A DNA stretch of 64,000 nucleotides from Candidatus Lindowbacteria bacterium RIFCSPLOWO2_12_FULL_62_27. GTDB lineage: Bacteria; Lindowbacteria; 2-12-FULL-62-27. Shown here one piece after another: positions 23,812-60,802 of the stretch. The position numbers and the translations under genes were made by a program. Each line of letters begins with the position of its first letter. Position 1 is the stretch's first letter. The notes beneath the pieces are model-generated. The model saw only the letters and a program-made list of their open reading frames with translations. It made no database searches and was not told the DNA's origin. The stretch spans positions 372,001-436,000 of the forward strand of contig MFPR01000004.1 of assembly GCA_001784175.1 (NCBI GenBank), read 5' to 3'.

Positions 23812-25200
23812 TCAATAGATCGTCACAATCTTGGTTCCTGGAAAATAAAATTTCAGGATTTGCGCACAGGTCAGCCCCTGCTCAGCCGCCGACTTGGCGC
23901 TCCACTGCGACAGACCCACGCCATGGCCCCAGCCCCGGCCCTGCACACCCAGACGGCCGTTCTTGTATGAGAAATCCGTCCAGAGCAGCGACCGGAGGCG
24001 GTCCGGGCCGATGCTCAGCCGGAATTTGCCCGCCGGGACGGTGACCCGGCCGCGCGTGCCCGTCAGCGACAGAAGCCGGACGCGGCCGCCGGCGGTCTTC
24101 TCGGCCACTTCGAAATTCCGGAGCCGGCCGACCTTCGCACGCGCGCTCCGGTCGAGCGCTTTCAGAATTTCCGGCTCGTCGAATTCCGCCTCCCATGACG
24201 CCCGCGGCGATGCGCCCGAGTATGGATCAGGTTTCGAGATCAGATACGGATAGGCGCGGCCCCAAATATCCCCCGACGATTCCAGCGTCCCACCCGACTC
24301 CGAATGAAAGACGGCTTCGATCAATTCCCCCCCGTACGTCAACACCTGGCCGCGCGTCGCGTCGACCGCCGCGGACGACCGCGGATCCTCCGAGGACCGG
24401 CCGCGGTACACCTGGATCGAAACGTCCGACGCGAGTCTTACCGGCCGTCCCGACGACGACCGCGCAAGGTCCATCCGGCGGAGCACAAACGTGCGGGACG
24501 CGACCGCCTGGGCCTTCAGCGCCTCCTCCGGCCACCCGGGGCCGACTTCATTTTTCAGGACGCCGTAGAGGTACTCCTCCACAGGAAGAGAATTCACAAG
24601 AACGAGTCGACCTTTCTCCACGGATATCTCCATTTTCCCGCGAAAGCTGCGCCCATTGAACCGCGATTCCGGCGGGAGAAGATAGGGCGATTCCACGCGC
24701 CGGCCGTTTTTCAAGACCGCCTGGCCCGACCGCGAGAACCGGTCGCGGTTGACGGTCAGCGTCTGGCCCGATCCGATCTCGATCTGCACCTCAGGCCCGG
24801 CCGTCCTGCCGACCGGGGCCGCAACCGGCGGCGCGTAGGTCTGAAGCAGAAACCGGCTCTCGGCCGCCCACTCGGAGTTTGGCGTGACTGCATCCAGCGC
24901 GGATTTCGCGTCGGGCCACCGGCCCTGTTTGCAGAAAACGAATCCGAGCACGAAGAGATATGCGTCCCGGTCCTCGCCCCGGGCCGTTTTCAGTTCCGCC
25001 TGGATCTTCTGCTCCGCTTGTTCGTATTTTTTCGCCTCGATCAATTCGAACACGGCGCGCGCCGGCCCGGCCGGCGTCGGAGACGCCGGCACTTGGGGCG
25101 CCGGAGGCGCTGACCCGGCACCGGCCACCGCCGGCGAGACCAGCGCCAGCCCCACGACGAAAACGGCGAGTCTCGAAACCGCCAAAAATGTCAGCCGCAC
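23812..25200 (-). CDS. SpoIID/LytB-domain protein with TPR-like N-terminus
   Basis: 462 residues from a GTG overlapping the folC stop. Signal peptide MRLTFLAVSRLAVFVVGLALVSPAVAG; then a Pro/Ala stretch encoded by an inserted DNA repeat; then a helical repeat (AVFELIEAKKYEQAEQKIQAEL) and, from about residue 180, the SpoIID domain: EEYLYGVLKNEVGPGWPEEALKAQAVASRTFVLRRM, AAVDATRGQVLTYGGELIEAVFHSESGGTLESSGDIWG and GRGWGHGVGLSQWSAKSAAEQGLTCAQILKFYFPG. SpoIID-family proteins are peptidoglycan lytic transglycosylases or amidase activators. Non-sporulation versions act in cell-wall remodelling, the likely role here. Confidence 0.9.
   Translation of the reverse strand: MRLTFLAVSRLAVFVVGLALVSPAVAGAGSAPPAPQVPASPTPAGPARAVFELIEAKKYEQAEQKIQAELKTARGEDRDAYLFVLGFVFCKQGRWPDAKSALDAVTPNSEWAAESRFLLQTYAPPVAAPVGRTAGPEVQIEIGSGQTLTVNRDRFSRSGQAVLKNGRRVESPYLLPPESRFNGRSFRGKMEISVEKGRLVLVNSLPVEEYLYGVLKNEVGPGWPEEALKAQAVASRTFVLRRMDLARSSSGRPVRLASDVSIQVYRGRSSEDPRSSAAVDATRGQVLTYGGELIEAVFHSESGGTLESSGDIWGRAYPYLISKPDPYSGASPRASWEAEFDEPEILKALDRSARAKVGRLRNFEVAEKTAGGRVRLLSLTGTRGRVTVPAGKFRLSIGPDRLRSLLWTDFSYKNGRLGVQGRGWGHGVGLSQWSAKSAAEQGLTCAQILKFYFPGTKIVTIY
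25070..25119 (+). repeat. Dispersed 50-bp double-hairpin element, copy A (in the SpoIID-like gene)
   Basis: GCCGGCGTC-GGA-GACGCCGGC hairpin, then ACTTGG, then a GGCGCC-GGA-GGCGC hairpin and TGACCCGGC. Same strand and same sequence as the copies in infB and the pseI-like gene; differs from the last by one base. In the minus-strand gene frame it encodes [17 protein letters not shown]. Confidence 0.85.
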
Positions 25201-26381
25201 AGCGGCAGCGCCTCCCGCACCGTGATGAAGGAACCCGTGACAACCATCCGGCCGTTTTCCGGGAGGCGGCGCATCGCGGCGGACCAGGCGCGTTTCATCG
25301 GCGCGGGAGGATGGACGTCGATCCCCCGCGCCCGGGCGAGCCGGAGGAAGGGCCTCCAGAGCCGCATCGGTTTGGATCTCGCGTGGGCCAGGCGGATCAA
25401 TCGAACGGAGTCGCCGCAGCCCAAGTGAGGCAGAATTCTTTCCTCGCCACGCTTTTGCCGCTGCATGCCCAGAAGAACGGCCAGAGGACGCTCCGGGAAT
25501 TTCTTGCGCAGATACGCGAACAGCGCGCCCAAGGCCTGTTCGTTATGGGCGACATCCAGCAAAACGGAACGGCGCCACTCGAACCGCCCTGGGAGCGATG
25601 CGCGGCGAAGGCCAGCACGCGCCACGGCAGGACGAAAGTCCGATTTCAAGATTTTCCTGGCGGCCAGAAGCGCCAGTGCGAGGTCCGATCCGTAGATCTC
25701 CGCCGGCAGCCGGCCGGAATGAATCCGACGCGTGGACAAGAAAACAGGACGCGCGCGACACGTGGCCGCCACACGGCGGATGGCCAGACGCGCGGCCGTC
25801 GGTACGGGGCCGACAAGAAGGGGACGGGCCCGGCGGGCGATGTGAGCTTTGTCCCATGCGATTTTTTCAACTGTCCGGCCCAGAAACTCCATATGATCAA
25901 GCCCGATGGTCGTCAGAATGGACAGACGGGGATCCGCGGCGTTCGTCGCGTCCCACCGGCCGCCCATCCCGACCTCCATCACCGCCCACGCCACTTCGTG
26001 TTTCGCAAAGAGCCGGTATGCGAGGAACGTCAGAAACTCGAATTCCGTGAGCCGCACCCGCATCTCCGACAGAAGCGCCCGTTGGGACGCAACCTCCCGC
26101 GAAAACTCGGCCGCCCCCACGGATCGGCCGTCGATTTCGTAACGTTCCCTGAACGACCGAAGATGCGGCGAGGTGTACAGACCCACGCGCCGCCCATGCG
26201 CCAGCAGGATCTCCGACAGAGCCTTCGCGCAGGTGCCCTTGCCGTTCGTCCCGCCCACCAGCACCACGCCGTACCGGCGGTCCGGCCGGCCCGCGCGGTG
26301 GAGCGCCGCGCGGATCCGCTCCAGCGACGGACGGATTCCCCGCTTGGCGAGATGGTCCAGATACGTTGCGGGATTCTTCAC
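25191..26381 (-). CDS. folC: Folylpolyglutamate synthase / dihydrofolate synthase
   Basis: Adds glutamate to dihydropteroate or folates. 396 residues from the GTG at 26381, whose GTGA overlaps the accD stop; longer in-frame sequence upstream is the accD antiframe and lacks FolC features. LDHLAKRGIRPSLERIRAAL, the P-loop VGGTNGKGTCAKALSEIL, LYTSPHLRSFRERYEIDG, EVGMGGRWDATN and LDVAHNEQALGAL (MurD-like ligase C-domain) are all present. Usual trp-accD-folC context. Confidence 0.92.
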   Translation of the reverse strand: MKNPATYLDHLAKRGIRPSLERIRAALHRAGRPDRRYGVVLVGGTNGKGTCAKALSEILLAHGRRVGLYTSPHLRSFRERYEIDGRSVGAAEFSREVASQRALLSEMRVRLTEFEFLTFLAYRLFAKHEVAWAVMEVGMGGRWDATNAADPRLSILTTIGLDHMEFLGRTVEKIAWDKAHIARRARPLLVGPVPTAARLAIRRVAATCRARPVFLSTRRIHSGRLPAEIYGSDLALALLAARKILKSDFRPAVARAGLRRASLPGRFEWRRSVLLDVAHNEQALGALFAYLRKKFPERPLAVLLGMQRQKRGEERILPHLGCGDSVRLIRLAHARSKPMRLWRPFLRLARARGIDVHPPAPMKRAWSAAMRRLPENGRMVVTGSFITVREALPLCG

Positions 26382-27214
26382 AGCCAGGAAAAAATCTTGA
26401 TCAGCGTGGGTCGGACATCCTTTCGAGGAAGTACCATATCGAGAAATCCATGCTCCAGCAGAAACTCGGCCCGTTGAAATCCCGCCGGCAGTTTCTGCCG
26501 GATCGTCTGCTCGATCACCCGCGGGCCCGCAAACCCGATGAGCGCGCCCGATTCGCCGATCAGGACGTCGCCCAGCATCGCGAAGGACGCCGTCGTCCCG
26601 CCCGTCGTCGGATCGCACAGCAGGCTCACATACGGCCGCCGGCAGGCGCGCCGGTACCCGGCCACGGCCGCCGAGGTCTTGGCCATCTGCATCAGCGAAA
26701 AGATTCCTTCCTGCATGCGCGCGCCGCCGGACGAGGTCACCATCAGGACCGGGAGAGACTTCTCAGCCGCGTATTCGAATGTCCGCGCCACGCGCTCCCC
26801 CACCACCGTCCCCATGCTGCCGCCCATGAATCCGAATTCCATCACGCCCATCGCGGTCTCCATCCCGCCCAGTTTCCCCACGCCGGTCACGATCGCCTCC
26901 CGCGCGGACGCGTCTCCGGAAAGCTTGTCGCCGTAGCCCGGAAATCCCAGCGGATTGGCCGGCCGGATGTCCATGAACATCGGCTCAAACGCGCCGGCAT
27001 CCACGAGAACCTGGATCCGCTCGTCCGCCGACAGGCGCATGTGATAGGCGCAGTGGTGGCACACGCGGAGGTTCTTGATCAGCGTTTCCTGCAAAATGAG
27101 TTCCTTGCAGTTCGGACACGACTCCCATTTCGCGCCTTCCGGACCCGCCTGGATGGCCGGCGGTTTCGATACATTTTTGATGATGGTGTATTGATGCTTC
27201 TTGAACCACGCCAT
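26378..27214 (-). CDS. accD: Acetyl-CoA carboxylase carboxyltransferase subunit beta
   Basis: 278 residues. N-terminal C4 zinc ribbon CPNCKELILQETLIKNLRVCHHC, then the crotonase-fold carboxyltransferase: GDASAREAIVTGVGKLGG, FMGGSMGTVVGERVARTFEYA, VMVTSSGGARMQEGIFSLMQMAKT and LLCDPTTGGTTASFAMLGDV. Works with AccA in the first step of fatty-acid synthesis. Placed 9 bp after trpA, as in many bacteria. Confidence 0.96.
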   Translation of the reverse strand: MAWFKKHQYTIIKNVSKPPAIQAGPEGAKWESCPNCKELILQETLIKNLRVCHHCAYHMRLSADERIQVLVDAGAFEPMFMDIRPANPLGFPGYGDKLSGDASAREAIVTGVGKLGGMETAMGVMEFGFMGGSMGTVVGERVARTFEYAAEKSLPVLMVTSSGGARMQEGIFSLMQMAKTSAAVAGYRRACRRPYVSLLCDPTTGGTTASFAMLGDVLIGESGALIGFAGPRVIEQTIRQKLPAGFQRAEFLLEHGFLDMVLPRKDVRPTLIKIFSWL

Positions 27215-27223
27215 GGCGCAATC

Positions 27224-27982
27224 CTAGATGGCCGGCGGCCGAATGTCGATGCTCCGGCGAAGCTCCCTCAACAGCCGGCCGAACGGTCCGAGTCCCCGCC
27301 GAAGCGCCTCCAGCGCGGCGGTGCCGACGATCACGCCGTCCGACAGGCGCGCCAGCCGCGCGGCCCATGCGCCCGACCGCACGCCAAATCCGACGTAGAC
27401 CGGCGCGTGAGACACGCGGCGGATCGCCCGGACCCGGCCCGCAATTTCGCGTTCGGCGGCGGCCGACAGGCGCGCTCCGGTGATCCCGCGAAGGCTGACC
27501 ATGTAGATGAACGCGCCATCCCGCGCCGCATCCGCCACGCGGGCCAGCCGGTCATCGGCCGTCGTCGGCGCGACGAAGGGGACCAGATAAAATCCGCGCG
27601 GACGGAACGGCAGATACGTCACGAGTTCCTCCGCCGGCACGTCCGGCAAAATACAGCCGGCGAATCCTGCCCGGCGGATTTCCCCGAACGCGCCCGCCCA
27701 ACCCCGGACAAACAGAGGGTTCGCGTACGTCATGAGCGCCCGAGGCAGTCCCGGCGGCAGGCGCTGCGAAAGATCGAGGGCCCGGTCGTAATTCATTCCC
27801 GCGCGGATGGCCGCGCTCGACGTTTTCTGGATCGTGGGTCCGTCGGCGATCGGATCGGAAAACGGCAGGCCGACCTCCAGAAGGTCCGCGCCTTCCTCCG
27901 CCGCAACCTTCGCCGCCTTCAAAAACGTCGCGCGGTCCGGCCAGCCGGCCGTGAGATACACGACGAGGGATTTACCTGGCAT
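27224..27982 (-). CDS. trpA: Tryptophan synthase alpha chain
   Basis: Cleaves indole-3-glycerol phosphate in the TrpAB complex. 252 residues with [44 protein letters not shown], which contains both catalytic acids (Glu in LLEVGLPF, Asp in SDPIADGP), and [30 protein letters not shown] at the phosphate site. Overlaps trpB by 11 bp. Confidence 0.95.
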
Positions 27983-29162
27983 GATCGAACAGCCTCGGAA
28001 TGTCCTTGTCGCCGCGGCCCGACAAATTGATGATCACGCGGTCGGCCCGCCGGTATCGGCGGCGCTCCTTCCAGAAGCCCGCCACCGCATGGGCGCTCTC
28101 AAACGCCGGCGGGATGCCCTCCAGGGTCGTCAGCCGGTGAAAGGCCTCCAGCGCCGCGCGGTCGCTCACCGCGAAGTACCTCGCCCGGCCGGTTTTTTTC
28201 AGGTAGGCGTGCTCGGGCCCGACGCCGGGATAGTCGAGACCGGCCGCGATGGAATGGACATCGGCGACGTTGCCGTCCGAATTCGAAAGCAAGAACGACT
28301 GCGATCCGTGCAGAATGCCGGGGCTGCCGCGCGTCAGGGTCGCCGAATGCCGGCCGCTCTTCAGGCCCGTCCCGCCCGCCTCCACACCGATCAGGTCCGC
28401 GCGCGTTCGAAGAAAAGCGTAGAAAATTCCCATCGCGTTGGACCCGCCGCCCACACAGGCATAGATCGCGCGCGGCGGCCCGCCGGCCTTCCGGCGAATC
28501 TGCCGCAGGGCCTCGCGGCCGATCACCGCCTGAAAGTCCCGGACCATCATCGGATACGGGTGCGGGCCCGCGACGGAACCGATCAGATAATACGTCGTCT
28601 CCACGTTCGTTACCCAGTCCCGCAACGCCTCGTTCATGGCGTCCTTCAATGTCTGCGACCCCGCCGTCACCTCCCGCACTTCCGCGCCCAGGAGTTTCAT
28701 CCGGAACACGTTCGGGGCCTGCCGCTCCACGTCTTTGGCGCCCATGTAGATCGTGCAGGCAAGTCCGAGTTTCGCGCAGACCGTCGCCGTCGCCACGCCG
28801 TGCTGGCCGGCGCCGGTCTCGGCGATCACCCGCCGTTTGCCCAGACGCCGCGCAAGAAGCGCCTGGCCGATGCAGTTGTTGATCTTGTGCGCGCCGGTGT
28901 GGCAAAGGTCTTCCCGCTTCAAATACACCCGGCACCCGGCCGCCTCGGATAGGCGGTCCGCCCGGTACAGGGGCGTCGGCCGGCCCGCAAAATCGGCCAG
29001 GAGCGCGGCCAATTCACGGCGAAATGCGCGGTCACGCCGCACTTTCCCGTATCCCGCCTCCAGCTCGAGGAGCGCGGTCATGAGCGTCTCGGGCACAAAC
29101 CGGCCGCCGAACGGGCCGAAATATCCGCGCCGATCGGGCAGAGACGGCAGTGGATGTTTCAA
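27972..29162 (-). CDS. trpB: Tryptophan synthase beta chain
   Basis: PLP enzyme that joins indole and serine. 396 residues: [19 protein letters not shown] at the start, [20 protein letters not shown] with the PLP lysine in [43 protein letters not shown] for phosphate and [15 protein letters not shown]. Bacterial TrpB1 type, pairing with the adjacent TrpA. Confidence 0.97.
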
Positions 29163-29166
29163 TATT

Positions 29167-29832
29167 TTAATGAACAGGAGAGGGAATAGACGCGATGCGG
29201 TGCAGGAGTTCCTGAACTTTGGCCGGATCCTTCACGCCCGGCGTTGTTTCGACGCTCGACGAAACGTCGACCGCGTAGGGATGGACCACCCGGATGGCCT
29301 CTTCCACATTCTCGACGTTGAGCCCGCCGGCCAGAATCAGCGGCATATCCGGGAACGCCTCCCGTATCGCGCAGGCCACTCGCCAGTCAAACCCCTCGCC
29401 AGACGCGGCGGAATCCAGGAGAATGCCGCCGACATGCGGAACATACGGCGCGATCTTGTCAGGCCCGAATCCGTTTTTGACCCGAAAGGCCTTGATGAGC
29501 CGGTTTTTGGGAAGCGCCGCGCAATACTCGGGCGTTTCCTGGCCGTGAAGCTGAATGTAGGACAAGCCGCAGAGTTGGGCCACTTTTTTGACCTGGCTGG
29601 CCTTTTCGTCCACGAAGACGCCAACCGCGTGTACGAACGGCGGCATATCCTCGATCCAGGCCTTGACCTGCGCGCCGACCACCGCCCGGGGAGACCCGTC
29701 GTAGAAAATGAACCCCACGGCATCCACTCCCAGCCGCGCCACTTCCTTGAGACTTGCGCGGTCTGATACCCCGCAAATCTTGACTTTGGGACCAAAGCTC
29801 CTGCAGGAGCCCGCCGAACCCATGAACGGCAT
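29167..29832 (-). CDS. trpF: Phosphoribosylanthranilate isomerase
   Basis: About 221 residues. [35 protein letters not shown] contains the catalytic Cys (KICG); [33 protein letters not shown] (general-acid Asp) and [16 protein letters not shown] follow. Start uncertain: the ATGs at 29832 or 29823 give 10-15 residues before KVKICG, slightly longer than typical, and neither has a strong ribosome site. Leads the trpFBA-accD-folC operon, 4 bp before trpB. Confidence 0.9.
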
Positions 29833-29912
29833 GGTTCGATGACTGTAGCTAGGGGAGCATGGTCTGGCAAGTGCCAGAGCGCGGTTCCGAGGGAAAAAAA
29901 CTGCCGCCCAAC

Positions 29913-29945
29913 CGTCTATATATATACATACATATATTATATAGA
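29913..29945. promoter_or_regulatory. AT-rich imperfect palindrome between trpF and rimP
   Basis: TCTATATATA at the left and TATTATATAGA at the right are near-inverted copies around an ATACATAC centre. The minus strand holds TATAAT (29941-29936), a perfect -10 hexamer upstream of trpF, but I find no good -35. It stands out strongly against the GC-rich surroundings. Confidence 0.4.
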
Positions 29946-29969
29946 GTCCGGCGTTTCTTGCCGGAGGGC

Positions 29970-29998
29970 TTGCATTTGGCAAAAAGGGGGCATATACT
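29970..29998 (+). promoter_or_regulatory. Promoter of the rimP-nusA-infB operon
   Basis: TTGCAT (29970-29975), a 17-bp spacer and TATACT (29993-29998), about 77 bp before the rimP start. Both hexamers match sigma70 consensus in 4-5 of 6 positions. Confidence 0.6.
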
Positions 29999-30021
29999 CC
30001 GGGTGATTGTCTTACCCAGCG

Positions 30022-30046
30022 AATGCGTGGGCCGGTCCCACGCATT
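30022..30046 (+). promoter_or_regulatory. Leader hairpin (possible attenuator) of the rimP-nusA operon
   Basis: AATGCGTGGG and CCCACGCATT form a perfect 10-bp stem with loop CCGGT, followed by TTGTATTGTTAT. It lies between the promoter and the rimP ribosome site. The U-rich tail and stable stem resemble an intrinsic terminator, so read-through could depend on NusA, which the operon encodes. Confidence 0.5.
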
Positions 30047-30074
30047 TTGTATTGTTATGGGAGGTTTGGCGGTC

Positions 30075-30533: not shown

Positions 30534-32185
30534 TGCCGCCGTCCACCAAGCGCAAGGCGAAACTCTCGGTCGACCAGGAAGCGCTGCTTCAGGCGATCGA
30601 CGAGATCGAAAAGGAAAAGGGGATCGACCGCGAGACCATGTTTCTGGCGGTCGAGGCCGCGCTGGTTTCGGCCTACCGCAAGAACCACGGCGTGACCTTC
30701 AACCTCGACGCGCGCGTGGACCGCAAATCCGCGGAGATCACTTTCCACCGGTTTCATATCATCGCCGAAACGGTCGAAGACCCCGAGCTTCAGATCACGC
30801 TCGAGGACGCGAAGAAACAGGCGGACGATGCGGAACTTGGCGGCAAGGTTTATTCCCCCCTGGTCTTCAACGTCGAGGAGTTCGGCCGGATCGCCGCGCA
30901 GACCGCCCGGCAGGTCCTGGTCCAGCGGATCCGCGAGGCCGAGCGCGACCTTTTGTACGAGGAGTACCGGACGCGGGAGGGAGAGGTCGTCACGGTGATT
31001 GTGCAGAAGGTGATCGGCGACAAGGTGATTCTGAATCTGGACAAGGTCGAGGCGATCATGCCGTCGAAGGAGCAGATCCCGCGGGAAATCTACAATGTGG
31101 GCGACCGGATCAAAGTATACGTGGTGCGCGTCCGGAAGGGTCTCCGGGGCCCGCTGATCATCGTGTCGCGGACGCATCCGAAACTGGTGGAGAACCTGTT
31201 CAAGATGGAGATCCCGGAGGTCTTTGACGGGCTGATCGAGATCAAGGCCATCGTGCGCGAGGCGGGGGTCCGGACCAAGATTGCGGTCAAATCGAACGAC
31301 GCGAACATCGACCCCATCGGCGCCTGCGTCGGCGTCCGCGGCAGCCGCATCCGGACCATCCTCAAGGAGGTGCCGGGCGAAAAGATCGACATCGTGCCCT
31401 GGAGCGAGGAGATATCGACCTTCGTCAAGAATGCGCTCTCGCCCGCGCAGGTCACCAAGGTCCGCCTCCAGGACGACGGCCGGACCGTCCAGGTGGTCGT
31501 ACCGGACAACCAGTTGTCGCTCGCGATCGGCAAGAAGGGCCAGAACGCGCGGCTGGCCGCGAGGCTGACGAGGATGCGGGTCGACATTTACAGCGAGACC
31601 GACTACGCGGAGATCGCGGCGAAGGCGGCGAAGGAGGCGGCGGCGAAGATATTTGTTTCGACCGCCGACCTGCAGAAGGAGCTGCAGAGGATTGCGGGTG
31701 TCGGCCAGAAGGCGTCGGAGGCGCTGACGAAAGCCGGGTTCAGCCTCCAGAAACTGTCCGAGTCCAAGCCCGAGGATCTCGTCGAGGTCGAGGGGATCGG
31801 CGAGAAGCGCGCCGTGAAGATGATCGAGGCGGCGAAGAAAGTATACGAGGAAGTCCAGGCTGAACGCCGGGAGAAGGCCGAGCAGGAAGCGGCCGGAGCG
31901 AAGGCGGAAGCGGAAGCGCCGGCCCCCGAGGCGCCGCCGGAAGAGGGGAAACCGCCGGCGCGCAAGGGCAAGACGAGGACCAAGAAAATCGAGATCGAGG
32001 AGGAGGCGGCGAAAGAGAAGGAGATCGCCGAAAAAGCGCCCCCGATGACCTTCGAGGAGGCCCTGAAACTGTTCTCGAAACGCCTGGGAGAGTCGAAAGC
32101 GGCGGAGGAGAGCGGCAAAACGGACCGGAAGAAAAAAGAAAAAGATGAGAACGATTCCGGCTCCGAGGAGGGCGACGACCGATGA
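30533..32185 (+). CDS. nusA: Transcription termination/antitermination factor NusA
   Basis: 550 residues. N-terminal RNA-polymerase-binding domain to about 130; S1 domain (GEVVTVIVQKVIGDKVILNLDKVEAIMPSKEQIP, about 150-215); two KH domains with GACVGVRGSRIRTILKEVPGEKIDIVPW and VVPDNQLSLAIGKKGQNARLAARLT; one helix-hairpin-helix tail LQRIAGVGQKASEALTKAGF and VEGIGEKRAVKMI. The last about 110 residues are a charged Glu/Lys/Ala-rich, probably disordered extension, unusual in length. Downstream infB overlaps by 4 bp. Confidence 0.96.
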   Translation: MPPSTKRKAKLSVDQEALLQAIDEIEKEKGIDRETMFLAVEAALVSAYRKNHGVTFNLDARVDRKSAEITFHRFHIIAETVEDPELQITLEDAKKQADDAELGGKVYSPLVFNVEEFGRIAAQTARQVLVQRIREAERDLLYEEYRTREGEVVTVIVQKVIGDKVILNLDKVEAIMPSKEQIPREIYNVGDRIKVYVVRVRKGLRGPLIIVSRTHPKLVENLFKMEIPEVFDGLIEIKAIVREAGVRTKIAVKSNDANIDPIGACVGVRGSRIRTILKEVPGEKIDIVPWSEEISTFVKNALSPAQVTKVRLQDDGRTVQVVVPDNQLSLAIGKKGQNARLAARLTRMRVDIYSETDYAEIAAKAAKEAAAKIFVSTADLQKELQRIAGVGQKASEALTKAGFSLQKLSESKPEDLVEVEGIGEKRAVKMIEAAKKVYEEVQAERREKAEQEAAGAKAEAEAPAPEAPPEEGKPPARKGKTRTKKIEIEEEAAKEKEIAEKAPPMTFEEALKLFSKRLGESKAAEESGKTDRKKKEKDENDSGSEEGDDR

Positions 32186-34437
32186 GAATTTTTGAACTTG
32201 CCCGCGAGATCGGCCGCAGCTCCAAGGAGATCATTCAGGAGGCGGCACGGCAGGGGATCACGCTCGCCAACCACATGGTCGCTGTGCCCGAGGAACTCGA
32301 ACGCAGCCTCCGGGCCGGCGTCGGGCCGGCGTCGGAGACGCCGGCACTTGAGGCGCCGGAGGCGCTGATCCGCGACGCCGGCACTTGGGGCGCCGGAGGC
32401 GCTGACCCGGCCGGCGCAAAACCGGCGGCGGCGCCTGTGACGCAGCCCGCGCCCACGCCCGTGACCAAGCCCGCGCCGGCAGTTGCGCCCCCGGTGGCTG
32501 CAACGCCCGCGCCCACGCCGAAGCCTGCGCCGAAGCCTGCGCCGACGCCCGCGCCGGCGCGTAAACCCGCGCCGCCCGCGGTCGCACCCGCGCCGGCGGC
32601 GAAGCCTGCGCCGCCCGCGGTCGCGCCCACGCCGGTCGCCAAAGCCCCCGCTCCGAAACCCGCCGTCCCGTTGAAAAAACTGGCGTTGCCCTTTCCGCTC
32701 CGCGTCGTGGATCTGTCGAAGGCGATCGACCGGCCGGCGGCGGAACTCGTGGGAAAACTCATGGGGATGGGCATGATGGTGTCCGCCAACGCCCCGCTCG
32801 ACCGGGACGCGGCCTTGCTCCTCTCAAACGAATACGGATATGAATTGGAACTCAAAGAGGAGGAAGCCGAGATTCCCGTCAGCCCCGTCGAGGAGACCGA
32901 GAAGGAGGATCCGAAGAATCTTCTGCCCCGGCCCCCCGTCGTCGTCGTGATGGGGCACGTCGACCACGGCAAAACGTCCATCCTCGACACGATCCGGCAC
33001 ACTCAGGTCGCCAAGGGCGAATTCGGCGGGATCACCCAGCACATCGGTGCGTACCGCGTGAAACTTCCGAACGGAAAATACATAGCGTTCCTCGACACGC
33101 CCGGCCACGAAGCCTTCACGGCCATGCGCGCGCGCGGCGGAAACGTTGCGGACATCGCGGTCCTGGTCGTCGCGGCCGAGGACGGGGTCATGCCGCAGAC
33201 GGTCGAGGCGATCAGCCACGCCCGGGCGGCGAAATTGCCGATCATCGTCGCCATGAACAAAATCGACAAACCCGAGGCCGACCGCCAGCGCGTCCTGAAG
33301 GGCCTGTCGGATCACGGGCTCAACCCGGAGGCCTGGGGCGGCGACACGGTGGTGGTGGAGGTTTCGGCGGTGAAAAAAACCGGAATCGACACGCTTCTCG
33401 ATATGATCGACCTTCAATCCGAAATGCTCAGTCTTAAGGCCAACCCGGACCGGCCCGCGACCGGAACGGTGATCGAATCGAAGCTGGAACGGGGACGCGG
33501 GCCGACCGCCACGGTCCTCGTGCAGAAGGGGACGCTGCGCGTGGGCGACATCTTCGTCTGCGGGTCGACCGCCGGCAAGGTCAAGGCGTTGATCGACGAA
33601 AACGGCAAGCGGATGGACCAGGCAGGTCCGTCCACGCCCTCGGAGGTTCTGGGATTTCAGGAAGCGCCCCAGGCCGGCGATCGTTTCAACGTGGTGGCGG
33701 ACGAGAAGACGGCCAAGGACATCGCCGAAGGCCGCGGATCGAGACGGAAAGACATGGCGCGCCGAAAGGCCGACGGGCCCCTGACGCTCGAGGCGATGAC
33801 GGAAAATTTGCGGGAGGGCGAAAAAACCGTTCTGCCACTCCTCCTCAAGACCGATGTGCAGGGCTCCCTCGAAGCGATCCGGGACGCGCTGGAGCGTCTT
33901 CGGAACGACGAGGTGCCGATCCAGGTCCTCCACGCGGCCCTGGGCGGGATCACGGAGAGCGACGTCCTTTTGGCCGCGGCCTCCGGCGCGACCGTCCTCG
34001 GCTTCAACGTCCGGCCGGACGAACGCGCCACCGCAACGGCCGATCGGGAAGAGGTGGATGTCCGGACGTATCGGATCATCTACGATCTTCTGGACGACGT
34101 CAAAAAAGCGGTGACCGGCCGGATGGCGCCCAAGACCGAGGAGCGGGTCATCGGCATGGCCGAGGTACGCAACGTATTCAAGATATCTCGGTTCGGCACC
34201 GTCGCCGGCTGTTTCGTCAAGGAGGGCAAGGTGGAGCGACGCGGGAAGATCCGGGTGGTGCGGGACGGCGCGATCGTGTACGAGGGGAAGATCGGCTCGC
34301 TCAAGCGGTTCAAGGACGATGTGCGGGAAGTCGAGAAGGGCTACGAGTGCGGGATCCTGATCGAAAACTACAACGACGTCAAAGTGGGCGACATACTAGA
34401 AATCATTCTGATTGAGGAGATGGCCCCGACCCTGTAG
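32182..34437 (+). CDS. infB: Translation initiation factor IF-2
   Basis: 751 residues. IF2-N domain ([21 protein letters not shown]), a Pro/Ala-rich linker to about 165, a second IF2-N-like domain ([21 protein letters not shown]), then the GTPase: [12 protein letters not shown] (G1), GGITQHIG (G2), DTPGHEAF (G3), NKID (G4), EVSAVKKTG (G5), and domains II-IV ending [14 protein letters not shown]. Delivers fMet-tRNA to the 30S subunit. The start of the linker (residues about 48-78) is made by a dispersed DNA repeat present also in two unrelated genes. Confidence 0.97.
32325..32412 (+). repeat. Dispersed double-hairpin element, tandem copies B1/B2 (in infB)
   Basis: A full unit at 32325-32374 (GCCGGCGTCGGAGACGCCGG, ACTTG, AGGCGCCGGAGGCGC, then a diverged end) is followed directly by a partial unit at 32374-32411 starting GACGCCGGCACTTGGGGCGC. 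Same strand as copies A and C. In the infB frame it encodes repeated [10 protein letters not shown]-type residues. Confidence 0.85.
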
Positions 34438-34450
34438 GGGCGGTCCAGCC

Positions 34451-34747: not shown

Positions 34748-34748
34748 C

Positions 34749-37148: not shown

Positions 37149-37158
37149 GTTCGAGTCT

Positions 37159-43382: not shown

Positions 43383-43538
43383 ATTATTCAGGTATCCCCC
43401 CTCTCCCGCCAGAGGCGGGAGAGGGTTGGGGTGAGGGTGGCAATCCACGGTCGGCGCCAGCCGCACCCCCCTCACCCGAGCTTCGCTCGTCCTCTCCCCC
43501 CTTCGGGGGGAGAGGAGGTGAATAGATACCTGAATGAT
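43383..43538. mobile_element. MITE-like element with 14-bp terminal inverted repeats between pgsA and pgpA
   Basis: ATTATTCAGGTATC (43383-43396) and GATACCTGAATGAT (43525-43538) are inverted copies with one mismatch, 156 bp end to end. Inside are two strong hairpins, CTCTCCCGCC/GGCGGGAGAG and CTCTCCCCCC/GGGGGGAGAG, and C/G-rich tracts. No ORF. The pgpA start codon (43534) lies inside the right terminal repeat. Confidence 0.55.
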
Positions 43539-47450: not shown

Positions 47451-47459
47451 TAGCCGCTC

Positions 47460-49993: not shown

Positions 49994-50016
49994 CAATCGA
50001 AATCCACGCCGTTTCG

Positions 50017-52414: not shown

Positions 52415-52416
52415 AT

Positions 52417-54164: not shown

Positions 54165-54169
54165 TGTGG

Positions 54170-55528
54170 CTATTTCCAAGTGCGGAGCAGTTCGGCGGCG
54201 ACCTGAAACCCTTCAACGTCGCGCACCTCGATGGACATCCGCGGGTCGCTCATGTCGAGAAGCCCGACCCGGTCGCCAAGCAGGCGGCCCTCGCGCAAAA
54301 AGAAGGGGTGCGTCACGCACCCGAGGGCCTTGATCCCGACACGCACCGGATGGCGGTACTTGCGGCGCATGAATCCCTCGTCGATCCTCCGGTACTCGCC
54401 GTTTCCGTCGATCCAGCACGTGTTGAATTCGCCGCGCGCGGGCAGGACCGTGTCGAATCCGCCGCGGACGAGATGCAGGATGAGCTGGTCGATGAGATCG
54501 GGCGGGCGGAACGGATAGGTGATTTCCATGGAAACCACAAGATCGGGCAGGATGCCGTTGTCCTCGATGAGCGAGAGGCTGTGCTGGAGGACTTTTTCGA
54601 AATCGACAAACTCCTTCGAATACATGGGATCGCGCAGAAAGGGCGTCTCCGCGCCGGCTTTGCGGGCGAGGTCCGCCGTCTCGGGGTGATCCGTCGCAAC
54701 GACCACGTGCTTGACATAGCGCGCGGCCCGGGCGCGCTCGACGGTGTAATCGATGAGCGGCCGGCCGCCGACCACCGGCACGGTTCCCGCGACCGGAATG
54801 ATGGCGACGACATTCATTTTGTCGACATCCGGAAAATTATTGTCCACCCGGAACTGCTCGCCGGGCAGGGACTCGAGGACGTCGACCACGTTGGAACACC
54901 GCCGTGCGTCCCGGTCATGATGGAGGCCGTGGTAGTGGAAGACCCGCGCATCCGGCTCGTACACGATCCGGTAGCCGGCCTTGAGAACCTCCTCGGCCCA
55001 CATGCGGTCCTCGATGTGGAGCACGCGCTCGTCGAACGGGAATTTTTCCCAGACGCGTTTCGGAAAAACGCTGTTGGCGTTGTGGAAAAAACTGTCCTTG
55101 ACCTGGACCCGCCGGTCGAGACCAAAGATGTTCAGCATGTCTCGTTTGTCGAAATCGGTGCTGAAGGCCATCGGCTCCTGGCGGCCGTAGACGGCGGCGC
55201 AGTTTTCGATCTCGGAAAAATTCCTCAGAAGCGCCGACATCCACCGCTCGTTCACCGGAATGCAATGGGCTGAGAGGCTCACGATGTACTCGCCCTCAGC
55301 CTCGCGAATCCCGGCGTTCAACGCCTGCCCGGGCCGGTACGGATCGATGGTGACGATCTTTCGGACGCCGACCGACCGGGCCTTCTCAACGGTCTTGTCG
55401 GAACTTCGATTGTCGACCAGGATCACCTCAAAGTTCTTATAATCCTGATGAAACACCTCGCGGAGGCACGACGAGACCCAGCGTTCCTCATTTTTCGCGC
55501 GGATGACGATCGAAACGAGCGGATTCAT
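54170..55528 (-). CDS. GT2 glycosyltransferase fused to a CMP-sugar-synthetase-like domain
   Basis: 452 residues from ATG 55528. Residues 1-215 are a family 2 glycosyltransferase: VSIVIRAKNEERWVSSCLREVFHQDYKNFEVILVDNRSSDKTVEKA, IREAEGEYIVSLSAHCIPVN, DRMWAEEVLKAGYRIVYEPDARVFHYHG. Residues about 238-452 resemble NeuA: VVAIIPVAGTVPVVGGRPLIDYTVERARAARYVKHVVVATDHPE, SMEITYPFRPPDLIDQLI, SDPRMSIEVRDVEGFQVA. The nucleotide-binding motif lacks the Arg, Ser and Lys of the usual ARxGSKxxxxKN, so the second domain may be inactive. The junction is a single uninterrupted frame. Confidence 0.85.
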   Translation of the reverse strand: MNPLVSIVIRAKNEERWVSSCLREVFHQDYKNFEVILVDNRSSDKTVEKARSVGVRKIVTIDPYRPGQALNAGIREAEGEYIVSLSAHCIPVNERWMSALLRNFSEIENCAAVYGRQEPMAFSTDFDKRDMLNIFGLDRRVQVKDSFFHNANSVFPKRVWEKFPFDERVLHIEDRMWAEEVLKAGYRIVYEPDARVFHYHGLHHDRDARRCSNVVDVLESLPGEQFRVDNNFPDVDKMNVVAIIPVAGTVPVVGGRPLIDYTVERARAARYVKHVVVATDHPETADLARKAGAETPFLRDPMYSKEFVDFEKVLQHSLSLIEDNGILPDLVVSMEITYPFRPPDLIDQLILHLVRGGFDTVLPARGEFNTCWIDGNGEYRRIDEGFMRRKYRHPVRVGIKALGCVTHPFFLREGRLLGDRVGLLDMSDPRMSIEVRDVEGFQVAAELLRTWK

Positions 55529-55581
55529 GTCCAGCCCCCCTCTCCTTGACACTCATCATGCGCCTATATAAACATTTTTTC

Positions 55582-56313
55582 ATGCTGGTAGCACTCGTGC
55601 AAGCCCGGATGGGTTCCCACCGGCGGCCGGGAAAAGTCCTTGCCGACATCGCCGGCCGCCCCATGTTGTGGCATGTCCTTCATCGCCTTCGCAACGCCCG
55701 CCGGCCGGACCGGATCGTGGTGGCGACGTCCACCGCCCAGCAGGACGATGCGATCGTCCGGCTGTGCGAAGAGGCGCGGATCGAGACATTCCGTGGAAGC
55801 GAGCACGACGTTCTGGATCGGTACTATCGGGCGGCGCTGGCGTGTAAAGCCGACGGCGTGGTGCGGATCACGGCCGATTGCCCCCTGGTCGATCCCGGCG
55901 TGGTGGATCAGGTCGTCTCCGTTTTTCAGGCCGCGAAATACGATTATGTTTCCAACACGATCCATCGCACGTTTCCTGTGGGACTCGACGTGGAGGTTTT
56001 CTCTTTTGCGGCCCTGGCCCGCGCCTGGAAGGAAGCGGAGGCGGAGGATCAGCGGGAACATGTGACGCCTTATTTTCGGGCAGCGGGCGACTTCGTCCTG
56101 TCCAACGTCGAATGGACCGGCGGGCCGGGCCTTCAGGATCTCCGGTGGACGGTGGACTATGAGGCGGATCTGGCGTATGTGCGTGAAATTTATCGCGAAC
56201 TCTATGACGGCGGCGCCGTGTTTCTGTTTTCCGATATTCTCAACCTGATCCGCCGGCGGCCTGATCTGTTCAGAACCGGGCGCCCGGCCGGGAGCGAAGT
56301 CCAGGCCATTTAG
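55582..56313 (+). CDS. SpsF-like nucleotidyltransferase
   Basis: 243 residues from ATG 55582 (MLVALVQARMGSHRRPGKVLADIAGRPMLWHVLHRLR). QARMGSxRxPGKVL is the cytidylyltransferase-like motif; VVATSTAQQDDAIVRLCEE, RITADCPLVDPGVVDQVV and LRWTVDYEADLAYVREI follow. Family members occur in spore-coat and surface polysaccharide synthesis, activating a sugar or sugar acid. Divergent from the GT2 fusion gene; both start near 55550, so a shared promoter region lies between them. Confidence 0.88.
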   Translation: MLVALVQARMGSHRRPGKVLADIAGRPMLWHVLHRLRNARRPDRIVVATSTAQQDDAIVRLCEEARIETFRGSEHDVLDRYYRAALACKADGVVRITADCPLVDPGVVDQVVSVFQAAKYDYVSNTIHRTFPVGLDVEVFSFAALARAWKEAEAEDQREHVTPYFRAAGDFVLSNVEWTGGPGLQDLRWTVDYEADLAYVREIYRELYDGGAVFLFSDILNLIRRRPDLFRTGRPAGSEVQAI

Positions 56314-56314
56314 G

Positions 56315-56857
56315 TTGGACGCGCGGAATCCCAAAAAGACCATCCTGGTTATCCGTACCGCCCCTGTGGCCCACTGCGTGCAAATGGTTCAATTCTTGAG
56401 AAAAAACGGATGCCCGGATCACGAGACGCATTGGATATGGATCAGCCAGCCTTCCGTGGAAAAGGACCTGCTCCGGGCTTGTGGCGGAACGGACATGGAG
56501 GTTCTGAGGTATGAGGATGGGTCCTTCACGCAGGGGGGCCTGAAAAAATTATGTGGAGAACGTTTCAGGCGCGAGCGAATCGATGCGGCCTATGTCGTGT
56601 TCAATAATTCCGAGGGTGCCGGTTATTTTCAGATTATCCGGTTTTTGTCCGGTCTCAACATTTTGAGGATGGTCGGTTGCGCGCCCGTCTGTCGGTTTGA
56701 AGAAATCAAGCCGGTCAAATTTGTTCTTCGCAGAATATCGGACACATGCCGATGGATCCTCGAATGGCCTTTGGTCCTGGTGGCCGTGCCCATCCTCCTC
56801 TTGTACTATTCGGCGATGTTTTTGCGTTCGCGGCTCCGCCGGAGTCCAACCGGATGA
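56315..56857 (+). CDS. Hypothetical glycan-locus protein with a C-terminal membrane helix
   Basis: 180 residues from a TTG one base after the SpsF-like stop. TILVIRTAPVAHCVQMVQFLRKNG and DAAYVVFNNSEGAGYFQIIRFLSGLNI suggest a nucleotide-sugar-like Rossmann half; ILEWPLVLVAVPILLLYYSAMFL is a membrane segment at the end. It overlaps the next gene by 4 bp. Possibly one half of a GT-B-type enzyme completed by the next protein. No family recognised. Confidence 0.5.
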   Translation: MDARNPKKTILVIRTAPVAHCVQMVQFLRKNGCPDHETHWIWISQPSVEKDLLRACGGTDMEVLRYEDGSFTQGGLKKLCGERFRRERIDAAYVVFNNSEGAGYFQIIRFLSGLNILRMVGCAPVCRFEEIKPVKFVLRRISDTCRWILEWPLVLVAVPILLLYYSAMFLRSRLRRSPTG

Positions 56858-57999
56858 CGGCGGTGTTGGATTTCCTGCTGGTCTGGTCGATCCTCGTGAT
56901 CGTCCGGCTTCTCCCCATTCGGTTCAGACTGTTGCCCGGCCATATCGGGCATCTGGCGCTGAATACCGAGGTCTGGTTACGGCGGAGGGCCGCCGGGAAC
57001 AATGGCCGCCGCGAGTTTTACGTTCTCTTCGGCATCCAACCGGCCAACCGGCAGATTCTGACCATGGTTGGCCGGCGAATGCCCGTGTGGGAGGGACGAT
57101 GGCCCACGCGGATTCTTCAAGCCCTGATGCGGCTGGATCCAAAGATTTGTCCGAAAATTCCGGGCGGCCATGGTCTTCGATCGTGGGAGGTGATGGACCG
57201 CATCGGCCCGCAACTGTATTTTACGAAAGACGAAAAGCGGCGGGGTGAGACGCTGTTAAAGGCCATGGGCATCAGGGCAGGCGGGGCTTTCGTGTGTTTT
57301 TTTGCCCGCGACAGCGCATACCAGGACGCGGTCCGGCCGTTTGCCTCCTCCGAGGGGTGGACCTATAATGATTTTCGAAACAGCAGCATTGAAAATTACC
57401 TGCCGGCGGCGGAGATGCTGGCCGATCAGGGGATCTGGGTGGTCCGCATGGGCGCGGTGGTCCAAAAATCCATACAGAGCAGGCATCCAAAGGTCATTGA
57501 CTACGCCACCGGATACAGGTCGGATTTCGGCGACGTGTACCTGATGGCGCATTGCAAATTCTTTCTGGGTGATACCTCTGGAACGTTCACCCTGGCCTCC
57601 ATCTTTGACGTGCCATGCGCGCTGGCAAATTTCGCGCCGCTCCATGCGCACGGCGTGTTGGGCCGGCGTGACCTGTTCATCCCCAAGAAATACCGGCATG
57701 CCGCGCAAGACCGCTTCATGCGATTCTCCGAGATTCTTGCCGTGGAGGCGGATGACTGGCACCCCGCCGGGCGGTATCGGGCGGCGGGGATCAGCGTTGT
57801 CGAAAACAGTTCCGACGAGGTCCTTGAGCTGGCGGCGGAGATGAATGCGCGGCTGGATGGCAGGTGGGTGGCCGGCGGCGAGGACGGAACATTGCAGGAT
57901 TGCTATCGCGCGCTTTTTTCCCCCGGCCAGCCGGTTTCCGGTTTCACCTCACGCGTGGGCGCCGGATTTCTCCGGCAAAACAAGGCACTCCTCGCATGA
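56854..57999 (+). CDS. TIGR04372-like glycosyltransferase
   Basis: 381 residues from ATG 56854. N-terminal hydrophobic segment, then LPGHIGHLALNTEVWLRRR, FVCFFARDSAYQDAV, YNDFRNSSIENYLPAAEMLADQGIWVVRMGAVVQ, VIDYATGYRSDFGDVYLMAHCKFFLGDTSGTFTLASIFDVPCALANFAPLHAHG. The 'F.R.s.i.~Y..a...L...G~~viRmG' and 'GdtSG' features match this polysaccharide-locus family. Its TGA stop and the stop of the convergent next gene abut as TGATCA. Confidence 0.8.
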   Translation: MTAVLDFLLVWSILVIVRLLPIRFRLLPGHIGHLALNTEVWLRRRAAGNNGRREFYVLFGIQPANRQILTMVGRRMPVWEGRWPTRILQALMRLDPKICPKIPGGHGLRSWEVMDRIGPQLYFTKDEKRRGETLLKAMGIRAGGAFVCFFARDSAYQDAVRPFASSEGWTYNDFRNSSIENYLPAAEMLADQGIWVVRMGAVVQKSIQSRHPKVIDYATGYRSDFGDVYLMAHCKFFLGDTSGTFTLASIFDVPCALANFAPLHAHGVLGRRDLFIPKKYRHAAQDRFMRFSEILAVEADDWHPAGRYRAAGISVVENSSDEVLELAAEMNARLDGRWVAGGEDGTLQDCYRALFSPGQPVSGFTSRVGAGFLRQNKALLA

Positions 58000-59724
58000 T
58001 CAATCCACCGGGATGAACCAGTCATCACACCGGCCGCAGAGGGGGCTTGCCTCCGTATATTGACCTTCACGATGCGCCTCTCGATGAGGGCGCATCCGGT
58101 TCCAAGCCTCCAGAAACGATAGAATCTCCATCACATTTCCCACGCTCGTTTCGGAGGCAGGGTTGAACATGCGATCGCACAGGACGATGCTGCCGTCCGT
58201 CTTGACAAATAACGTGTTCGACATCCGGCGGCAGGGGAACCGCTTGAGAGGCGTAAAATTCGTCAGCCGGTGGTCCGGATTCTGTCCCGCATGGGTCGAG
58301 GCGCCCTGAATGACCAGATGCTCCACCATGTGGCCCTCGTCATAAAAGGTGCGCACGGCCGCGATCTCATTGTCAAACGTAAAATCCCTGCCATACCGCT
58401 TGATCCATTTCTTCCGCGTCATATGAGAGGACATGAACGCATCCACATGATCCTCGAGTTCGGCGATGAGCGTCGTTGTCAGGATGATGACCGGCCCAAT
58501 CATAAAGGTCAGGTTGCTTCTGGGCCGCGCTCGTTTGAGTTCCAAGAGACGATCGATGTTGCGTTTGACGGTCTGAAAATCCCCGGCGGGCCGGATCTTG
58601 AGGTAGTGGGGCTCGTCCACCGCGTCCAGGGACACCATGATCGACGCGACGGGGCCGCGCGCCATGTGTTCGGCGATGTCCCCGCCCATCAACCGACCGT
58701 CCGTATAGCAGTGAATACCGGGCATCACAGGATATTTTTTCGTAAACACGTCCAGGAGGCGCAACACCTCGGCGTACTGCGGATGTTGCAGCGGTTCGCC
58801 CAGCCCGGCCAGGTGGACGTTCTCGACAAAGCCGGCATCCTGGGCAAACAGCTCGAATATTCGTGAAAATATTTCGATGGACATATAGGAGGGATACACC
58901 GCCGGTTTTTTCCAGTGATTCAGGGGAGAGTACACCGGGGGAACGTCGTTGACGGATGAAATCTCAATCCAGGCCGATTTCCGCCCTGCAGGGATCACTA
59001 CATCCGTCGTTTCCAGCAACGTCGACAGCCGGTCGATGCTCAAATCTGAAAGGGCTGTATCGAGTTTTCCGATCACGGTCCGATAGGCGTTCACCGCAGA
59101 CGGTGTACACCGCTCGAACAAGAGAGGATACCCGAGAGGACGCCCACGGCGTTTCTCAATTTCAGCCCGGAAAGGGCCGGATAATAACTTAAAGGGGCTT
59201 CCCAGTAATGCGAAGGCGGTGTGAAACGTCATCATGGGGTCGGGCGCCTGCTCCATGAGACTGATCACGTTTTCCAATTTTGGAATCATGGATTGATGAA
59301 AGAGAACCATCTCCCATCCCGGCCAGACGATATTGACAGCCGCCGGATGGTTGTCCTGGACCGCCTTTGAAAAAGTGAATTTGAATGTTTCGTCATCAAA
59401 AAAAGTTGAAAAATTGGGGCGAAGTCCGGCCAGCCAGGGTGTGTTCAGCCCCTGCAGGGCGGACAGATAGAAACGGAATTCCGCCGCTGGATATTGGGAT
59501 GGGCGGTCCTTGATCAGAAGAGGGGTGATCGGCCGCCGAATGTCCCGCATCGCCGCTTCACACGCCTCCCGGGTCTGCGGAACAACCGCCGCAAGGAGGG
59601 GGCCGATTTCCCCGCATGTCCCGGCCTTTTTGACGGCCGCCACGAACAGGTTCTCATCCCCGATTGGTTCAAACCACACCGGATCCACCGCCGGAATCAA
59701 CAAACTAACCTGTGCCATTTTCAA
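58000..59724 (-). CDS. Radical-SAM/SPASM-like protein without the cluster-binding CxxxCxxC
   Basis: 574 residues. N-terminal about 240 residues are an unrecognised domain (PITPLLIKDRPSQYPAAEFRFYLSALQGLNTPWLAGLRPN). The next part aligns with the radical SAM barrel (IEIFSRIFELF, VHLAGLGEPLQHPQYAEVLRLL, ASIMVSLDAVDEPHYLKIRPAGDFQTVKRNIDRLLELK), but where CN..C..C is expected it has SSVNDVPPVYSP (about 256-267). C-terminal SPASM-type cysteines are kept (about 498, 516, 563, 566). Without the first cluster it should not cleave SAM; it may bind another cofactor or serve as a scaffold. Confidence 0.75.
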   Translation of the reverse strand: MKMAQVSLLIPAVDPVWFEPIGDENLFVAAVKKAGTCGEIGPLLAAVVPQTREACEAAMRDIRRPITPLLIKDRPSQYPAAEFRFYLSALQGLNTPWLAGLRPNFSTFFDDETFKFTFSKAVQDNHPAAVNIVWPGWEMVLFHQSMIPKLENVISLMEQAPDPMMTFHTAFALLGSPFKLLSGPFRAEIEKRRGRPLGYPLLFERCTPSAVNAYRTVIGKLDTALSDLSIDRLSTLLETTDVVIPAGRKSAWIEISSVNDVPPVYSPLNHWKKPAVYPSYMSIEIFSRIFELFAQDAGFVENVHLAGLGEPLQHPQYAEVLRLLDVFTKKYPVMPGIHCYTDGRLMGGDIAEHMARGPVASIMVSLDAVDEPHYLKIRPAGDFQTVKRNIDRLLELKRARPRSNLTFMIGPVIILTTTLIAELEDHVDAFMSSHMTRKKWIKRYGRDFTFDNEIAAVRTFYDEGHMVEHLVIQGASTHAGQNPDHRLTNFTPLKRFPCRRMSNTLFVKTDGSIVLCDRMFNPASETSVGNVMEILSFLEAWNRMRPHREAHREGQYTEASPLCGRCDDWFIPVD

Positions 59725-60802
59725 TCATCTCCCACGACAAAGGTGTCCCCTCGTCAATATTGCGGCTGGCGGTCCGGCCGAGGATGGAGGGGTAATACCG
59801 GCAGGGAAGGCCGTGGCCCGGGCGAATCGTTTTGATGTTGTTGGATCCGAAGGCTTCTCCCTGGTGGATGGCCCGAACCGCGAAAATGGACGGGCGGAAC
59901 CGGATGTTGACCTCTTCGTCCTCGTTCGGCCCGTACCGCACGCCTCCCATGGCCCTTTCAGTTTCCCGGACCGATTGAACCAGTTGTTTGAATTCGGCGG
60001 GTTCCATGGAAAACGCCGCGTCCGGCCCGCCCAGGGATCTCGACAGTGTGAGATGTTTTTCGATGATCGTCGCCCCCAGCGCCACCGCCGTGACTGCGGC
60101 GACGGATCCCAGCGTGTGATCGGACAGTCCCACCGGCCGGTGGAAGGCAGCCTGCATGTCCGCCAGTGTTCTCAGATTCATTTGATCCAGCGCGGCCGGG
60201 TAGGCGCTGGTGCATTTCAACAAGGCGATCTCCCGGGCGCCCACCCGGTCCAGCGTGACGACGGCCTCCTGTATTTCATCGCGGGTGGCCATTCCCGTGG
60301 AGACAATGACGGGCTTGCGGGTTCGGCCGATATGTTCCAGCAAATTCAAATCAACAATTTCGAACGATGCGATTTTGTAGAGCGACACGCCCAGCCGTTC
60401 CAGAAAATCCACGGCGGTTTCGTCGAACGGCGTCGAAAAGAAATCGATCCCGACTTCCTCGCATTTCTGTTTCAGCCTGGGATGCCAGTCCCACGGCAGA
60501 TATGCTTTTTGATAGAGATCGTACAGCGTCCGGCCCCTCCAGGGGGAATTTTCCGGCAATTGAAACCAGGCCGATTTGGAATCAAAGGTGATCGTGTCCG
60601 GCGTGAAGGTTTGAATTTTGACGGCGTTGGCGCCGGCGCCCATGGCCGCATCAATCAGTTGAAAGGCCACGTCCAATTTCTGGAGATGATTGGCGGACAG
60701 TTCCGCGACAATATAAACGGGGCCGGCCGGCGTCGGAGACGCCGGCACTTGGGGCGCCGGAGGCACTGACCCGGCCGGATCGAATTTATCAGGCGGGGTC
60801 AT
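59705..60802 (-). CDS. pseI: Pseudaminic acid synthase-like nonulosonate synthase
   Basis: 365 residues. VYIVAELSANHLQKLDVAFQLIDAAMGAGANAVKIQTFTPDTITFD, FFSTPFDETAVDFLERLGVSLYKIASFEIVDLNLLEHI, VIVSTGMATRDEIQEAV, SDHTLGSVAAVTAVALGATIIEKHLTLSRSLGGPDAAFSMEPAEFKQLVQSV and a SAF tail (SIFAVRAIHQGEAFGSNNIKTIRPGHGLPC). KIASFEIVD and the MEPxEF region favour PseI over NeuB. The first 28 residues are made by an inserted DNA repeat. Overlaps the transketolase C subunit by 14 bp. Confidence 0.88.
   Translation of the reverse strand: MTPPDKFDPAGSVPPAPQVPASPTPAGPVYIVAELSANHLQKLDVAFQLIDAAMGAGANAVKIQTFTPDTITFDSKSAWFQLPENSPWRGRTLYDLYQKAYLPWDWHPRLKQKCEEVGIDFFSTPFDETAVDFLERLGVSLYKIASFEIVDLNLLEHIGRTRKPVIVSTGMATRDEIQEAVVTLDRVGAREIALLKCTSAYPAALDQMNLRTLADMQAAFHRPVGLSDHTLGSVAAVTAVALGATIIEKHLTLSRSLGGPDAAFSMEPAEFKQLVQSVRETERAMGGVRYGPNEDEEVNIRFRPSIFAVRAIHQGEAFGSNNIKTIRPGHGLPCRYYPSILGRTASRNIDEGTPLSWEMIENGTG
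60726..60775 (+). repeat. Dispersed double-hairpin element, copy C (at the 5' end of the pseI-like gene)
   Basis: 50 bp identical to copy A except one base (AGGCACTG against AGGCGCTG). In the minus-strand gene frame it encodes [17 protein letters not shown] right before VYIVAELSANH, where related synthases have a short N-terminal strand. Confidence 0.85.

Follow-up and report, generated by a model that had tools for sequence, protein, structure and literature searches.

This work reports that a 48-nt unit made of two DNA hairpins has been inserted in three unrelated genes of a 64,000-nt stretch of Candidatus Lindowbacteria bacterium RIFCSPLOWO2_12_FULL_62_27 (GenBank assembly GCA_001784175.1, contig MFPR01000004.1, positions 372,001 to 436,000; hereafter the window), and recurs throughout the genome. 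The unit is a discrete piece of 48 nt that inserts into genes, is read there in frame, keeps a conserved paired structure and has been amplified in a lineage-specific manner. Based on these findings, we propose that the units very probably form a family of non-autonomous 48-bp double-hairpin mobile coding palindromes, a kind of selfish DNA that host genes read through into protein, and we leave the enzyme unnamed. The first-pass annotation of this DNA had already taken them for a mobile protein-coding palindromic repeat comparable to the Rickettsia palindromic elements (RPE), and genome-wide copies, clean empty sites, co-variation of the stems and self-nesting bear it out.

Anatomy of the unit and co-variation of its stems

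The unit reads GCCGGCGTC-GGA-GACGCCGGC, followed by ACTTGGG, GCGCC-GGA-GGCGC and TGAYCCG, and with its variants the first hairpin is spelled G[CT]CGGCGTC-GGA-GACGCCG[GA]C. Hairpin A (21 nt) has a 9-bp stem and an RGA triloop, hairpin B (13 nt) has a 5-bp stem and a GGA triloop, and together with the 7-nt linker ACTTGGG and the 7-nt tail TGAYCCG they make up the 48 nt; the triloops are mostly GGA, and loop A is AGA in 14 of the 72 distinct copies. In an alignment of 103 sites, the conserved stretch about the core runs from position −19 to +29 and conservation declines outside it. The unit length of 50 bp given at first is corrected to 48 nt by the gaps in orthologues and by the nesting described below.

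Both stems co-vary, and the compensatory changes preserve pairing. Over 14 stem pairs in the 72 distinct copies, 93% of the cells hold standard pairs, compared with 83% when the partners were shuffled and at most 42% when they were slid. In hairpin B, one pair occurs as C-G, G-C or T-A and the next as G-C or C-G, both sides changing together, and the stem variants of hairpin A include CGATGTC/GACATCG. While the stems switch, the loops, the linker and the tail are near-constant across copies.

The predicted single-strand DNA fold forms both hairpins and pairs the linker GGG with the tail YCC. C-GNA-G triloops are highly stable in DNA; we considered this as backing for a role at the DNA level and set it aside, loop A reading AGA in the 14 copies mentioned above. 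A role at the RNA level, in which selection on transcripts would maintain regulatory or protein-binding hairpins (for instance with GGA loops of the CsrA type), would agree with the GGA that the loops present. However, the consensus RNA fold is a different one, a single long hairpin; relative to genes, antisense copies are no fewer than sense copies, so that the mRNA would carry the complement; an Rfam match at the gathering score is absent in the window; and the empty sites in relatives reveal no conserved position. We therefore disfavour the RNA reading as highly improbable.

Copy number and distribution

With a 32-nt core and at most three mismatches, 58 matches were found in the source genome, compared with 0 for a reversed control pattern, so that the window does not simply hold three chance copies. 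They fall on both strands (32 plus, 26 minus), and thus the earlier remark that all copies share one strand holds within the window but not genome-wide. A looser pattern with hairpin B unconstrained gave 68 matches. The working set comprises 71 copies in the source genome (G000), 31 in a sister genus (G002) and 1 in a third genus, all of one family, and retains a few false positives and half-copies; some matches with two mismatches were discounted as half-elements or chance, such as that at position 3744 of L086, which aligns gap-free to its orthologues. Copies were absent from 57 genomes outside the family. The dominant hairpin-B stem of the sister genus, which favours CGC/GCG, differs from that of the source genome, and therefore each lineage amplified its own subfamily.

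Half-elements were also seen. Two of them, consisting of hairpin B and tail only, lie about 200 nt apart in opposite orientation at L083 of the source genome (C31:20182− and 20397+), and one of the two contributes to a predicted signal peptide. Another, at position 8587 of L119 in the sister genus, is a hairpin-B half-element in a DNA polymerase III alpha-like gene, where it apparently replaces native sequence with a net gap of 2 residues.

Empty sites and self-nesting

A comparison with relatives, at a minimum of 45% identity, was possible for 30 insertion sites. The relatives are draft assemblies, and only two lie within the family, both of them in other genera, which often leaves the flanks in disordered regions without a usable alignment. 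At 14 of the 30 sites, exactly 16 codons are missing from one or more relatives; examples are the sites in glutamyl-tRNA synthetase (gltX), TrmD (in two relatives), a CO-dehydrogenase-type flavoprotein, a thioredoxin-like protein, an RND pump and a Crp-type regulator; apart from TrmD, GltX and LepA, gene names beyond the window are our own reading of the sequence. Additionally, the solved structures of TrmD lack the same 16 residues, those of GltX lack most of the insert residues, and the solved LepA proteins start downstream of the insert. Chance similarity within low-complexity coding sequence, which the GC-rich composition and the proline/alanine-rich reading of one frame might suggest, is refuted by the count against the reversed control, the compensatory paired changes and these clean 48-nt gaps.

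Self-nesting is the strongest evidence that the unit moves as a discrete 48-nt piece. It was found at six places, namely infB, L077, L081 and L085 in the source genome and L104 and L129 in the sister genus, with the inner copy in the triloop of the outer one at GG^A, and at each of the six the outer hairpin is paired again once exactly 48 nt are excised. In infB, where the copies had been called tandem and are actually nested (Table 1), deleting the inner copy restores GGCGTCGG^CGACGCC...CTGACCCG, with one loop base changed from A to C. Nesting by chance is unlikely in a 4.4-Mb genome with some 70 copies of a 48-nt unit, and several of the six nestings could be explained by transposition of a ready-made compound.

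Table 1. Copies of the 48-nt element in the window and the genes that carry them
Feature	Position in window	Strand	Remarks
Element copy A, 48 nt	25070..25117	+	Antisense and in frame, downstream of the predicted signal peptide in the SpoIID/LytB-domain protein
SpoIID/LytB-domain protein gene, host of copy A	23812..25200	−	Domain starts at about residue 196-201, distant from the insert
Outer infB copy, 5′ part	32314..32324	+	5′ arm of hairpin A and loop GG
Inner infB copy, 48 nt	32325..32372	+	Within the hairpin-A loop (GGA) of the outer copy
Outer infB copy, 3′ part	32373..32409	+	3′ arm of hairpin A, linker, hairpin B, tail TGACCCG
infB (translation initiation factor IF-2), host of the nested pair	32182..34437	+	
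Element copy C, 48 nt	60726..60773	+	Antisense and in frame, in the N-terminal extension directly ahead of the PseI domain
Pseudaminic acid synthase PseI (NeuB family) gene, host of copy C	59705..60859	−	

The window holds four copies at three places. As first described, they are near-identical in three unrelated genes, and copies A and C differ by a single base (GGCGC in one, GGCAC in the other) at the places then reported. The reading direction was likewise correctly assigned, being sense in infB and antisense in the SpoIID-like gene and pseI. The nested pair adds 96 nt to infB, in the linker ahead of IF2_N.

Gene context and reading frames

Of the 72 copies, 63 lie wholly inside predicted genes (88%), while the gene caller used, a simple codon model, puts coding coverage at 87.1%; genes are neither preferred nor avoided by the insertions. 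Both orientations and four reading frames are in use. With the reading frames of CCGGCCG within genes as the expectation, the stop-bearing frame is depleted (0 of 80, 13% expected; p = 1e-5), and so is the arginine-rich frame (2 of 80, 13% expected; p = 0.001). Therefore, the encoded peptide is filtered by selection. The claim that selection acts on the DNA and not on the peptide is thus corrected: with two of the six frames depleted, selection is not on the DNA alone. Similarly, the placement at disordered N-terminal or linker sites is true of the three places in the window but not of the family, as insertions also enter the folded domains of TrmD and GltX.

In our proposal, an insertion within a gene would add a 16-residue segment without destroying the gene, because 48 is divisible by 3 and only one of the six element frames contains a stop codon. 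Through the survival of the host gene, copies could persist in genes at the density seen elsewhere in the genome, while bad frames and positions would be removed by selection. The open frames as an adaptation were considered as well and are not claimed here, because composition alone leaves few stops in a 48-mer of such high GC content.

Target site and candidate mobiliser

The left flanks favour CCG at −21 to −19, and the right flanks favour GCCG. Where base −22 is a pyrimidine, it matches base +26 of the tail (27 CC and 23 TT versus 9 CT and 5 TC; Fisher p = 1e-5), whereas a G or A at −22 has no counterpart at +26, which is essentially always C or T, and so this is not a plain target duplication. 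A simple target-site duplication was also sought by an offset analysis and rejected, as only the match between −22 and +26 emerged, with purines uncopied. YCCG stands at both ends and co-varies, the left position being a preference, and the cut can be placed only within the repeated CCGG. These features bear on a classical miniature inverted-repeat transposable element (MITE), whose parent would be a DDE transposon with inverted repeats at its termini and duplicated target sites, and which would likewise be short, repeated and non-autonomous and could have CCGG at both ends. However, the ends GCCGGCG and TGAYCCG do not form an inverted repeat, the shared YCCG is no simple duplication given the purines at −22, and a parent transposon with these ends was not found; the MITE explanation is disfavoured and can be given very little weight.

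We propose instead that a copy inserts beside a YCCG/CCGG sequence, being mobilised in trans by an HuH/Y1-type enzyme that would recognise the hairpins in single-stranded DNA and insert the element 3′ of YCCG. A hairpin at each end with YCCG in both positions resembles the plan of the IS200/IS605 family, and the linker GGG could pair with the tail YCC. A mobiliser of the HuH/Y1 class with single-stranded insertion is the model we prefer, tentatively, and we infer it at somewhat less than even confidence. The source genome has eight Y1 (HuH) transposase genes that are RAYT-like, i.e., like REP-associated tyrosine transposases (REP, repetitive extragenic palindromic sequence), and one of four tested Y1 proteins scores above the curated cut-off for that family.

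Several observations weigh against this proposal. None of the eight Y1 genes of the source genome is flanked by a copy, the nearest copies being about 4–9 kb off, and the RAYT link that the first-pass annotation had suggested is therefore not upheld. Across the draft assemblies of three genomes (8 + 10 + 6 Y1 genes), none is flanked by a copy either, and a scan around the Y1 genes of the source genome and two relatives for copies or similar triloop hairpins found none. An autonomous partner with these ends was not found, and left halves nearly always accompany right halves. Insertion into the lagging strand would predict an orientation bias, but the bias relative to GC skew is weak and rests on non-independent copies (46:26, p = 0.02). 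As for mobility, 16 of the 30 compared sites are without a clean 16-codon gap, several being variable linkers and a few half-elements or chance matches. Clean empty sites in orthologues are seen at the 14 sites but not in the window, where the flanks of the infB and spoIID sites are too variable in relatives to yield an exact empty site and a pseI orthologue was not found in them. Finally, the source genome is an incomplete 4.39-Mb draft (94% complete, 44 contigs).

That no linked enzyme was found also favours another explanation, wherein an RPE-like coding palindrome spreads without a dedicated transposase, through hairpin-primed template switching or CCGG microhomology in replication. The insertion point indeed lies within a CCGG microhomology common to element and target, and a few half-elements seem to replace native sequence, as in the polymerase gene at L119, in keeping with template switching. 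However, 14 sites and six nestings share one sharp unit length of 48 nt, which is more precise than template switching would lead one to expect, and we consider this explanation unlikely. More ambitiously, the family might be a new class of mobile hairpins that targets CCGG-type sites, including its own triloops, in single-stranded or cruciform DNA, with the 48-nt length and the near-stop-free frames as adaptations to genes, and might act as a standing generator of 16-residue insertions outside the known RPE hosts. Targeting of triloops of its own kind would then account for the six nestings, but we hold this reading as a whole to be distinctly improbable.

As a separate observation, other perfect hairpins of at least 8 bp lie within about 250 nt of the Y1 genes in L094, L091, L092 and L097, e.g., TTATTTCGGACTGACCAGTCAGTCCGAAATAA in L094, and are possibly the REP-type sites of those genes themselves.

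Comparison with known systems

In working mode, the closest known system appears to be the RPE (Ogata et al., 2000/2002; reviewed in PMC10969869 and PMC2996958), which belong to another lineage and presumably differ in sequence. Both are dispersed palindromic DNA, in frame in unrelated genes, tolerated by the host proteins and absent from relatives. Whereas RPE are about 150 bp and occur in obligate intracellular parasites (PMC10969869), the present element is 48 bp with two RGA-loop hairpins, belongs to an uncultivated lineage, uses four frames, inserts adjacent to YCCG and nests in itself. Coding palindromes are also cited for Wolbachia and Methanocaldococcus (PMC2996958). The PARCELs (PMC2996958) are likewise palindromic DNA read as protein and spread among genes, but they are tandem 25-residue amphipathic repeats, unlike the mostly single 16-residue inserts without a fixed peptide found here.

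The REP and REPIN sequences with their RAYT (TnpA-REP) transposases (PMC2817692, PMC3733652, PMC6006769) resemble the element in being short hairpin repeats (REP 21–65 nt) with many copies per genome and compensatory stem changes, in the RAYT-like genes of the genome, and in that some REPs are intragenic. However, the unpaired GT[AG]G (or CGTC) foot is missing, CGTC occurring within the stem of hairpin A, and the bases ahead of hairpin A are a variable target with YCCG preferred. Additionally, REPs are reported mainly intergenic (PMC3733652), in contrast to the intragenic share of 88%, equal to coding density, and the RAYT genes here are unflanked; unlike the inverted doublets of REPINs, the two hairpins are dissimilar and in direct order. 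Since foot tetranucleotide, extragenic location and flanking RAYT were each looked for and not found, we do not file the element as a REP. Di Nocera et al. list intragenic REPs as well as CGTC REPs without a transposase, and therefore intragenic hairpin repeats are a known kind; the element stands apart from these by a double hairpin of exactly 48 nt, by entering genes at coding density, by nesting in itself and by its host lineage.

The enzymes of the IS200/IS605 family read subterminal hairpins and cleave at a tetranucleotide flanking the left end and at one closing the right end (PMC6006769). Like IS608 and ISDra2 of this family (PMC6006769), the element has a hairpin near each end; their fixed tetranucleotide 5′ of the left end and the one closing the right end may have counterparts in the YCCG that is preferred at the left and recurs at the right. 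However, it carries no transposase between its ends and none was found with these ends, it measures only 48 nt, and its left end is the hairpin foot.

Other repeats in the window

Four near-identical 37-nt repeats (ATTGTAGTCCCGCTCAAAAAAAATTCAAGGGTGAAAG) with unrelated spacers of about 35 nt form a small CRISPR-like array at 4516–4769. Two perfect hairpins with a 12-bp stem and a 3-nt loop, unrelated to the element, lie at 43399–43425 and, on the reverse strand, at about 43490–43516, and are possibly terminators or another repeat.

Conclusion

Coding palindromes are known chiefly from Rickettsia, with Wolbachia and one archaeon as further hosts. With its sharp ends, empty sites, nesting, two sister genera with differing stems and candidate HuH enzymes, the family reported here makes the question of how such elements move directly testable. 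Furthermore, it indicates that selfish DNA can settle in genes as densely as elsewhere in a genome and so insert residues into enzymes as essential as TrmD and GltX.

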